From Corallium rubrum (taxonomy: Eukaryota; Cnidaria; Anthozoa; Scleralcyonacea; Coralliidae): a stretch of DNA of 64,000 nucleotides. The notes under the pieces were generated by a model. The model was not told the DNA's origin, searched no databases, and was given only the letters and a program-made list of their open reading frames with translations. Every line of letters begins with the position of its first letter. The stretch's first letter is position 1. Both the position numbers and the translations under genes were made by a program. Where the stretch lies: the NCBI GenBank assembly GCA_964035015.1, contig OZ036010.1, positions 10,191,783 to 10,255,782 on the forward strand. The letters run 5' to 3'. Shown one piece after another: positions 9,001 to 59,114 of this stretch.

Positions 9001-12000
9001 AAGAGCAAAATGAGTAACACTGAATGGAATTCATAAGAACGAAGCTGAGGTCACGCACGCACAGTGATGCGCCGTAGAGTTCAAGCAATTGGTACATTGG
9101 AAAACTACTCTCAGTGACAGGAGCAGTTACGGTATAATGACCATGTACAGGTCATATGAACTTCAAAAGTAGATGTCAATAATGATAAATAAGTATCGAG
9201 TAAAAAAGTTTTGAATGTCGCAAGATTGCACAGATTTAGGGCAAGGAGCCGCTCCTTGTATGACATGCCTCCTATCTTGGATTGTAAGATCCATCTTGTT
9301 GCCCGTCTCTGAACGCGCTCAGGTTTCTTATTCATTATCCGGTTGACGAATATTAATAATTAAGTAATCATTTCCTAAACGCTGGTAGAGATTTGTATTT
9401 AATTGTAATGTGTTTTGGTAAGGCACAGTGTCACCATGACGCAAACTTGAAAAACTTCGTGGACAAATTCATGTTCACATGATTAAAATTATGCTGAATA
9501 TCACACACGTCAAAACTTGGACTAAATAGTCCATAAGGAAATGCACTAACGACTTACTATTTTAACGTTTTATGAATATTATTCCTTTTCTTTGCACATA
9601 AATATGATTTTTGTCTCGCACGAAACTATTAGGGTGGCTCCATAGGAGTAAATTATAAAAAATCATATTTTTTCCTCTAAAAGGTTTTGTAGTGTACATT
9701 TGTGCTTCATTCTAGTTCCTTGCACGGCCCTAGTGCTACTCTTGAGCATTGAAAAGTACTAGACAGTGCACGACTTTAAGGAGGGGATAAATCTAGCTTT
9801 GTTCTAGGAAGTTCAGAATGCAAGGGCTACGACAAGGAACTAGAATGCAAGGGCTATGACAAGGAACTAGAATCCAAGGGCTATGACAAGGAACTAGAAT
9901 GCAAGGGCTATGATAAGGAACCAGAATGCAAGGGCTATGATAAGGAACTAGAATGCAAGGGCTACGACAAGGAACTAGAATGCAAGGATTATGACAAGGA
10001 ACTAGAATGCAAGGGCTATGACAAGGAACTAGAATGCAAGGGCTACGACAAGGAACTAGAATGCAAGGGCTACGACAAGGAACTAGAATGCAAGGGCTAT
10101 GACAAGGAACTAGAATGCAAGGGCTACGACAAGGAACTAGAATGCAAGGGCTACGACAAGGAACTACAATTAGTGACAAAACCTCTTCGGACACATTAAA
10201 TAATAATTTATTTTATAGAAAATTACATAAACATAATCCGGTGACCCCCTCCCCCCTTTTTCAATGTTGCTGTACAACAAGATCATGTAGTTAGGAAGGC
10301 ATGTGTAATGTAGACAGCGATACTTTGGCCACTCAACATTGAAAGGGGGGAGGGGGGAATATATCCTTTAATTAGGAGAAATGTCCGAAGGGTTTTGTCA
10401 CTGATTGTCTGAAAACGAAAAGGTCTTATTTATACTCACGGGTGATCCTTTCGCTGACTTTCATCTTATTATTTTAGAGAAGTTTATATGTCCAAACGTC
10501 CGAACTCCTGTTTTCACTGCGAAAACTATTTTATAAGATTTTGGTACCTGTTTATTCCATATATTTACAATGGAGGGCGGTCGCAAGGGTGTGAAAGTCG
10601 GGTCAATGCAGTGTTAATAGCTCGCGTATTCAGTTTTACGTTAATAAACACGAAGCCATGAAAACAAGTAGAATATAGATACCCCTGAACGTGTGTCATG
10701 TTGCAATAACTATGCCCCTTGACGCATCTTATCTGTACGTTTTCGGTATTGCATTTACACGTGTTGTTTAAATATGACGTAGAAGGAGAGTGTCTGATCT
10801 TCAAGAGTCGTCTAATTAATTGCCGACACGGTTAACGATTTACACCTATTTGAATAAAACTATTGAATATATATTAATTATGTTGAGTGTAAACCGTAAA
10901 TCGTTCTCAAATTCATTAATAACTCATGAGATTTCGCTCAATCAGACAGCTCCATGGCATTCCGTCACGTGAATCGAATGGGCTGTGAAACACCGGTAAA
11001 ACACTGGTTTCTTCGTCAAACACTAGCGTTTCATTTCTGTCACTTAAACAAGAAACACGATACGATTATCCGCAAGTCCCACAACGGCGGCTCATTGGTT
11101 CACTGTCTTTCATTTGAGAAGCCATTTCCAAAACTCGTTCTGCGTGTTTGTCAGGTCAGGAGACCTTGGCTGAATTGTTCGCATTGCTGCGTTAACAGAG
11201 CGCAAGGCACGTTTTTGCTTTCGCTGACGTCTGTGACGGCTCATTGTCCATCACAAATATTTTGTTGTCACATTCTCCCTTACCGGCAATTTCAAAAAGA
11301 ATTGCAGACGATCGACGTATAAACTGGGCAAAATAATGTAACAGACATCTTTTCATATACCTCTGCACAAATAACACCTTTTCCGTGCACTATAGCCACT
11401 AGTAAGTGTAAACGCTTTCCTCCATAAAAGAGCGCTATTATGACGTCATTAAATTAGTATGCTTATACGAATTATTATTTAAGGAGATATATTTTTGTGC
11501 AGTTGCATGCAAACGTTCATGAAATATCATATTGTATTTCTGTATAGTTGAGGAGAAAACACTTAACCGAAATTGACTCTTTTTTTTTTCAGACAATTAG
11601 TGACAAAACCTCTTCGGACACATTAAATAATAATTTATTTTATAGAAAATTACATAAACATAATCCGTTGACCCCCTCCCCCCTTTTTCAATGTTGGTGT
11701 ACAACAAGATCATGTAGTTAGGAAGGCATGTGTAATGTAGACAGCGATACTTTGGCCACTCAACATTGAAAGGGGGGAGGGGGGAATATATCCTTTAATT
11801 AGGAGAAATGTCCGAAGGGTTTTGTCACTGATTGTCTGAAAACGAAAAGGTCTTATTTATACTCACGGGTGATCCTTTCGCTGACTTTCATCTTATTATT
11901 TTAGAGAAGTTTATATGTCCAAACGTCCGAACTCCTGTTTTCACTGCGAAAACTATTTTATAAGATTTTGGTACCTGTTTATTCCATATATTTACAATGG

Positions 12001-58318: not shown

Positions 58319-59114
58319 TTTATTGAATGATTTCAACCTCTTCGAGATTTCGCTTCGTCTAAAACGCGTGCGGCAATACGATAATTTCTCAAATTTCAAC
58401 GACAAGGTAGCGGCGGGTCTTCTTAGTTTTTGAAGCTATTAATCTTAATATAAAAATAATTATATTCCCATTAACAATTCATTGACAGTATTAGCCGGGG
58501 AAATAATTTTTAAACTTAAATAAAACGTTCTATTATGAAATGAAATACACCGTACGTGCTTATTTTCCCCCCAATCATCACAATGTCAGATATAGATTCA
58601 GTTAAAGCGGACTCGGATATTAATCACCCAACGGCTGAAATATGAGCGTCATATTTAAACAATAGTAATATTATTAATACATCTCTCTTTCAACAGTTAT
58701 CCTATCCAAGTTACCAACTCTCACACTTTCTCTCGCAATACTAGTGACGTAGGTATTATTGAGTGACAAAGAAAGGGCTTCAGGCAGAGAAATATGGCGG
58801 AGAAGCGTGCGCAGTAGAGCGCAATCTATACATTTTTAAATGCAAATATCTCTCTACTAATTGCACGAAACAGTCTCAAACTTCACCATTGTTTATTGAC
58901 TTTAATTTACAAATAGAAATCATATTTTAGCTGCATTTTATACAATATTAAAAAAAATCCGTCAAGGACAATCTTGGACAATAATGTTGTAACACCCCCT
59001 CCCCCCGATTCAATGTTGACCGAAATGAAACAATGTTGGAATGGAGTTTCATATAACAACATTGAATTGGGGGGGAGGGGTTGACTGTTACAACTATTAT
59101 TGTCCAAGATTGTA

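Follow-up and report, generated by a model that had tools for sequence, protein, structure and literature searches.

The 64-kb window, i.e. the whole stretch of Corallium rubrum DNA that was analysed, contains three elements built to a common plan, which lie exactly at the coordinates that had been proposed in a reading of the sequence alone: 10167-13260, 20371-23049 and 48917-59112. Each is bounded by self-complementary modules (M) with CAAT...ATTG ends, combined with longer units (U). Element 1 is organized as M-U-M-U-M, with three modules of 241 bp. Element 2 is organized as M-UU-M, with two modules of 144 bp and its units joined by CTG without a module between them, and element 3 as M-U3-M-U3-M-U3-M-U3-M, with five modules of 142-144 bp. 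The features are as follows:

10167-10407, + strand: element 1, left module M1, 241-bp hairpin, outer flank CTA
10408-11593, + strand: element 1, unit U1 copy 1, 1186 bp
11131-11423, - strand: transposase remnant in U1 copy 1, in three pieces matched by the L081 protein in tblastn (73-93% identity)
11594-11834, + strand: element 1, internal module, flanks CAGA/TCTG, without TA
11835-13019, + strand: element 1, unit U1 copy 2
12558-12850, - strand: transposase remnant in U1 copy 2, tblastn, same pieces as in copy 1
13020-13260, + strand: element 1, right module, outer flank TAG
20371-20514, + strand: element 2, left module M2, 144-bp hairpin, outer flank CTA
20515-21708, + strand: element 2, unit U2 copy 1
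21709-21711, + strand: element 2, CTG at the unit-unit junction, module missing
21712-22905, + strand: element 2, unit U2 copy 2, same sequence as copy 1
22906-23049, + strand: element 2, right module, outer flank TAG
48917-49060, + strand: element 3, module 1, outer flank CTA
49061-51430, + strand: element 3, unit U3 copy 1, i.e. the U2 backbone with two nested insertions (~49540-49915 and ~49970-50785, by eye)
51431-51574, + strand: element 3, module 2
51575-53943, + strand: element 3, unit copy 2
53944-54085, + strand: element 3, module 3, 142 bp
54086-56455, + strand: element 3, unit copy 3
56456-56598, + strand: element 3, module 4, 143 bp
56599-58968, + strand: element 3, unit copy 4
58969-59112, + strand: element 3, module 5, outer flank TAG

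The sequence-only reading had described self-complementary modules of 141-241 bp at both ends and sometimes between units. Self-complementarity is borne out by folding of the modules as single-stranded DNA, which gave z = -13.3 for the 144-bp and z = -8.8 for the 241-bp module against 200 shuffles, none of which was as good, while the measured lengths are 142-144 and 241 bp; internal modules are found in elements 1 and 3 and are missing from element 2. The outer flanks of all three elements are CTA..TAG and, as had been claimed, TA touches only the outer module ends, the inner ends abutting unit DNA (GA before the module, TCT after it). The tandem repeats that host elements 1 and 2 include uninterrupted copies in which the empty site CTAG is visible, so in these two elements the TA is a real duplication. 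The statement that the two module types are not the same sequence yet share a segment was also correct: CCCCTCCCCCC..TTCAATGTTG and its mirror are common to the 241-bp and the 142-144-bp type and, among eight modules compared, this core is present in seven and inverted ends in all. Comparison of the U1 and U2 units revealed no significant similarity (best E 0.05). The G run is often shorter in internal than in terminal modules of the same array (53944-54085 and 56456-56598 in the window; L010, L022, L025, L027), and a short G run occurs also in some terminal modules (L016, L017). Elsewhere in the window, very long AAAC-type microsatellites (7046-8529 and 26990-28202) are open in many frames and lie near frames that by eye resemble vWA domains.

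The 474-Mb assembly containing the window was scanned for further copies. Genome-wide there are 1,644 TA-flanked module ends, as opposed to 6 for a reversed-pattern control, and the left end of M2 has 529 matches with at most three mismatches, the reversed control having none. The search that gave the copies elsewhere used a multi-unit query and thus favours multimers; the counts based on the M2 end, the C1 singles and the TA-flanked ends are less affected by this bias. Among 22 rows of flanks, 20 are readable on both sides (the other two have an N gap on one side or a boundary that proved internal), and the flanks are TA..TA in all 20 and CTA..TAG in 15 of them. Copies without outer TA had been named beforehand as evidence against the proposed class; one exception of this kind, an array on contig C20, is described below. 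In the annotated loci, relatives of element 1 possess one or two units, and those of element 2 take the forms M-U-M, M-UU-M, M-UUU-M, M-U-M-U-M and M-U-M-UU-M. On contig C1 the 94 listed exact matches to the M2 end can be sorted into 27 singles, 22 pairs, five triples and two quadruples, 56 groups in all. Inspection of 26 of the singles (the 27th place belongs to L012) revealed nine solo modules, at seven distinct sites, with TA on both sides, 16 cases of one unit end whose partner module is absent from the exact matches, and one case that led to the transposase; of three pairs analysed in full, two have the form M-U-M and the third is M-UU-M with a CAG join. The first 100 of the 1,644 TA-flanked ends form 31 convergent pairs and leave 38 ends without a partner. 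Of these 31 brackets, eight are of solo size (called by length, one of them read) and others have the size of a single unit, while longer ones enclose arrays of 5 units (10 kb) and 13 units (32 kb). Where a bracket of 11-44 kb contains no transposase match, the pairing may be due to chance. Thus, solo, single-unit and multi-unit TA-flanked forms, for which a genome search had been suggested, are all present.

Across the family the modules measure 82-254 bp. An array at L041 stops at an assembly gap of 200 N. An old solo module of 252 bp (L046, 2445-2696) is flanked by TTA..TAG and retains the C-run/CAATGTTG core, and at L039 (3093-9273) a spacer of only 111 bp separates two oppositely oriented family members, each of which has TA at its outer flanks. 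A third family (L080, 2609-3122), which adjoins the C20 array, has an 82-bp module (CAATCCTGGACAAAA..), which is without the C-run core, and a short 350-bp unit.

An autonomous copy is located at C1:25237542-25242275 (4,734 bp) and comprises CTA, a 243-bp module, a 380-aa transposase frame, a 534-aa Rep frame on the opposite strand, a second module identical to the first and TAG. It is a single-unit relative of element 1, in which the two genes point at each other, and it contains the Tc1/mariner-type transposase with CAATY ends that had been predicted from the window. Two transposase copies match the DDE_3 profile (E=9e-15 and 1e-15, both above cut-off) and in both the second D and the E are 34 residues apart (DD34E); the HTH_Tnp_Tc3_2 profile is also matched, below its cut-off. 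No further frame of at least 130 aa was found in the 4,561 bp scanned at this locus, which reach to 520 bp from its end, and no capsid-like frame in this single copy read. At another locus (L056, extended as L078) an M2-type end is joined to the C-terminus of a Tc1-like transposase (DDE_3 E=4e-5, below cut-off), with an M1-type module at the other end and TA on both sides. A search with the L078 stretch, in which 150 of 612 candidates were scored, gave 150 matches; these form 42 clusters, of which 18 are tandem and contain up to 25 units. In the C20 unit the transposase frame is 221 aa long, and its match to the 380-aa frame is confined to residues 13-147 and 297-381. We assign the lineage to the Tc1/mariner type (DD34E), with long self-complementary terminal modules in direct orientation, and the part of the mechanism proposed below that concerns the transposase is well supported. 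Another candidate for an autonomous copy, C1:13846966-13851304, was ruled out, its modules being old and interrupted and its frames reverse-transcriptase-like by eye.

The element 1 unit aligns with the autonomous copy in collinear blocks of 92, 94, 84 and 90% identity, with most of both genes missing. Judged from this alignment, element 1 derives from the autonomous transposon, with which it is collinear, and is non-coding. Captured host DNA was rejected as the content of its unit, in which we find remains of the transposon's own genes instead. For elements 2 and 3, no coding remnant was detected at a tblastn E of 0.01. The sequence-only reading had likened the three elements to composite transposons, in which MITE-like modules move the DNA between them. 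This holds in that the class exists and its modules appear to be mobile (solo TA-flanked modules, clean internal loss), but the interior of element 1 is not passenger DNA.

The Rep gene lies outside the window, so it could not be seen in that reading. Both Rep copies read contain the motifs HYHxxVK (HUH), YVTKED (YxxK), and GPAN[TC]GKT and FLNDF (superfamily-3 helicase). The Pfam matches are all below the curated cut-offs: REP_ORF2-G2P with E values of 7e-5 (L082) and 0.014 (L084), and Parvo_NS1 with 7e-4 (L084 only). No relatives of Rep were found in PDB sequences, where the matches are chance-level (best E 0.14 and 0.42), in IMG/VR or in plasmids. In the genome there are Rep matches at 93 places with 41-100% identity (89 of 757 candidates scored), 77 of them without an internal stop. 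Among the matches listed, a Rep match lies within 4 kb of 36 of the 150 transposase matches (chance ~0.0016 each) and of none of the other 114, and a transposase match lies within 4 kb of 42 of the 93 Rep matches. The C20 unit and L078 retain only the C-terminal part of Rep. Between two families, Rep and transposase have pS values of 0.86 and 0.79 and pN values of 0.30 and 0.24, respectively; at the level of sequence, both are under purifying selection.

Units of family 2 differ by 0.13% within arrays (23 pairs) versus 2.1% between arrays, and those of family 1 by 0.25% versus 0.83%. By mismatches, units are closest to their own array in only seven of 15 cases (L002, L015, L016, L018, L025, L027 and element 3), and partly in L010, with three ties (L009, L017, L022) and four cases against (L001, L003, L011, L014). 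Two private indels are common to both L001 units and one deletion to two of the three L014 units, whereas the L017 units differ by 14 bases. Since the closeness is divided array by array and the private indels are partly supportive, many arrays descend from one unit and some are mixed. Element 3 proves that units are copied, because both nested insertions are present in all four of its units. The arrays of 5 and 13 units are each enclosed by one pair of TA-flanked ends. In the latter (C1:20942985-20974561, 13 transposase units) the strand changes between 10 of the 12 neighbours, an alternation reminiscent of parvovirus concatemers, which may reflect replication of the rolling-hairpin type or inversion between palindromic modules. 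The C20 array (C20:1807579-1852099; L079, L080) comprises 25 transposase matches, with a module at the left edge of the first and at the right edge of the last unit and no TA outside; three inter-unit junctions read in it are CAG, CTG and CAG. In several transposase arrays the unit spacing takes two values, about one module apart.

A search for unit-unit junctions in the element 2 family, with the length fixed at three and the letters free, gave 50 CAG, 34 CTG and one TTG at 85 places, which are not independent: a single array on C15 accounts for 17 of them and another on C46 for 14 (about 35 loci by eye). The CAG ends of Sleeping Beauty yield C(A/T)G. Three-base overhangs and footprints are described for Sleeping Beauty and mariner in PMC7827188. 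As C(A/T)G is what staggered-break joining yields, the junction sequences indicate that modules most likely excise by themselves, cleanly, from between units. Long runs of junctions at C46:1331082-1349311 and C15:3728173-3756886 (14 and 17 places) are all CAG, mostly with a spacing of ~1195 bp in C46. These CAG runs are a transposon turning into a satellite, and they imply that such junctions also get copied.

We consider as the best overall explanation, somewhat to be preferred though far from secure, a Tc1/mariner lineage with palindromic direct-repeat modules, whose transposase moves a module, a unit or an array and whose Rep makes concatemers. The transposase would pair any two module ends, so that a single module, a unit or a whole array would be mobile, and its excision of an internal module would leave C(A/T)G. 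Rep, as an HUH nickase with a superfamily-3 helicase, would take the hairpin module as its origin and produce concatemers by replicating module-unit DNA that is circular or closed by hairpins at its ends. The transposase would then insert a whole concatemer in a single event, and TA would flank only its outermost ends. Gene content, selection and the form of the arrays suggest that Rep is probably the source of the concatemers. A more specific version seems to us conceivable, albeit not quite to the point of belief: multiplication in the manner of a small DNA virus would be combined with Tc1-like movement, Rep concatenating hairpin-bounded units (possibly by rolling hairpin) and the DD34E transposase pasting the block into CTAG, by which satellite-like arrays would be seeded and hairpin ends freed as MITEs. 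Against the overall explanation it has to be said that C(A/T)G from CAAT ends would need extra trimming, that the C20 array is without outer TA and 114 of the 150 transposase matches have no listed Rep match within 4 kb, that the Pfam matches of Rep stay below the cut-offs and its relatives were not found in the databases named above, that by mismatches units are closest to their own array in only seven of 15 cases, and that most features of the arrays could equally result if identical direct modules underwent unequal exchange or slipped gap repair.

The latter process is the basis of the main rival, which keeps the Tc1-like transposon but has the multimers form only once it is inserted, through unequal crossover or slipped gap repair, with Rep otherwise employed or a hitch-hiker. 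The modules are indeed identical or near-identical direct repeats, and the solo modules that this rival predicts exist (seven distinct C1 sites; eight of the 31 brackets solo-sized). Arrays L003, L014 and L017 mix unit lineages, and such mixing points to at least some unequal exchange; unequal crossover is also invoked by the authors of PMC9587614 for the multimers of KolobokP. However, the modules are merely 82-254 bp long and yet there are arrays of 25 and 13 units, one array is mostly strand-alternating, which simple direct-repeat exchange does not give, and the Rep frame has been kept open under purifying selection, so that as a full account we regard this rival as rather doubtful. For the junctions alone, C(A/T)G might stem from circle closure of two unit ends without a module instead of being an excision scar, and the long all-CAG runs of module-less units (14 on C46, 17 on C15) do suggest that one junction was amplified; CAG and CTG are, however, found together within single arrays (L011, L018), and one unit-unit junction in L012 has a small deletion, as expected from break repair, which makes circle closure an improbable source. 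That the arrays are single units inflated in assembly, as the array ending at a 200-N gap might hint, is very improbable, given that units at many loci differ by CAG or CTG junction, by module presence and by some substitutions and indels. The elements might also be non-autonomous members of KolobokP, whose (LTDR-INT)n-LTDR and LTDR-(INT)n-LTDR layouts are both matched here, but the TA duplication, CAAT..ATTG ends, modules of 82-254 bp, DDE_3 transposase and Rep in place of a His-Me nuclease leave next to no room for this assignment.

Comparison of the Tc1/mariner lineage proposed here with known systems reveals likeness to several of them. The DDE_3 domain with DD34E spacing, the TA duplication and the three-base scar are all those of Tc1/mariner (IS630-Tc1) elements. 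We know of no described Tc1/mariner element with direct-repeat modules, multimers or Rep, and no Tc1-like element with Rep or hairpin direct repeats was found among titles and beginnings of abstracts in the open-licence literature. Parvovirus NS1 and the Rep of CRESS-DNA viruses have an HUH domain followed by a superfamily-3 helicase, and are associated with hairpin ends and concatemers. The HUH, YxxK and SF3 Walker motifs likewise occur in one protein here (two copies), but there is no capsid-like frame (one copy), chromosomal insertion is of the Tc1 type and no relative in IMG/VR was confirmed by tblastn. Replitrons and Helitrons are eukaryotic transposons with HUH enzymes, Helitrons having a different helicase and not being known to make a target duplication, whereas the insertion signature here is Tc1-type. 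An origin from PHIS/ISL2EU was rejected, as the target there is A/AT/T (PMC4482050).

The sequence-only reading had stated that no family with such a layout was described, which does not hold in view of KolobokP. According to its description (PMC9587614, Kojima and Bao 2022), KolobokP has long terminal direct repeats of ~450 or 660 bp with their own inverted ends, solo repeats, multimers with target duplications and evidence of repeat excision, and it encodes a Kolobok transposase and a His-Me homing endonuclease, with 3-5 bp duplications and RR..YY ends; its authors considered it unlike any other DNA transposon. The LTDR-INT-LTDR layout and the multimers recur here. The elements nevertheless fall outside KolobokP because their ends (CAAT..ATTG, not RR..YY), duplication (TA, not 3-5 bp) and genes differ, the frames of the autonomous copy being a DDE_3 transposase and Rep instead of a Kolobok transposase and a His-Me nuclease. 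This looks like a second, independent case of the KolobokP-type layout, in Tc1/mariner and with another partner gene.

The usual view of cut-and-paste transposons is that their copy number rises only by indirect means. If the proposed mechanism is true, possession of its own replication initiator would make this lineage a replicative DDE transposon in a eukaryote. It would also offer an easy path by which a transposon could become satellite DNA, and MITEs, the composite layout and tandem arrays would be joined by one mechanism. Our findings also suggest that the composite layout known from KolobokP arose more than once.
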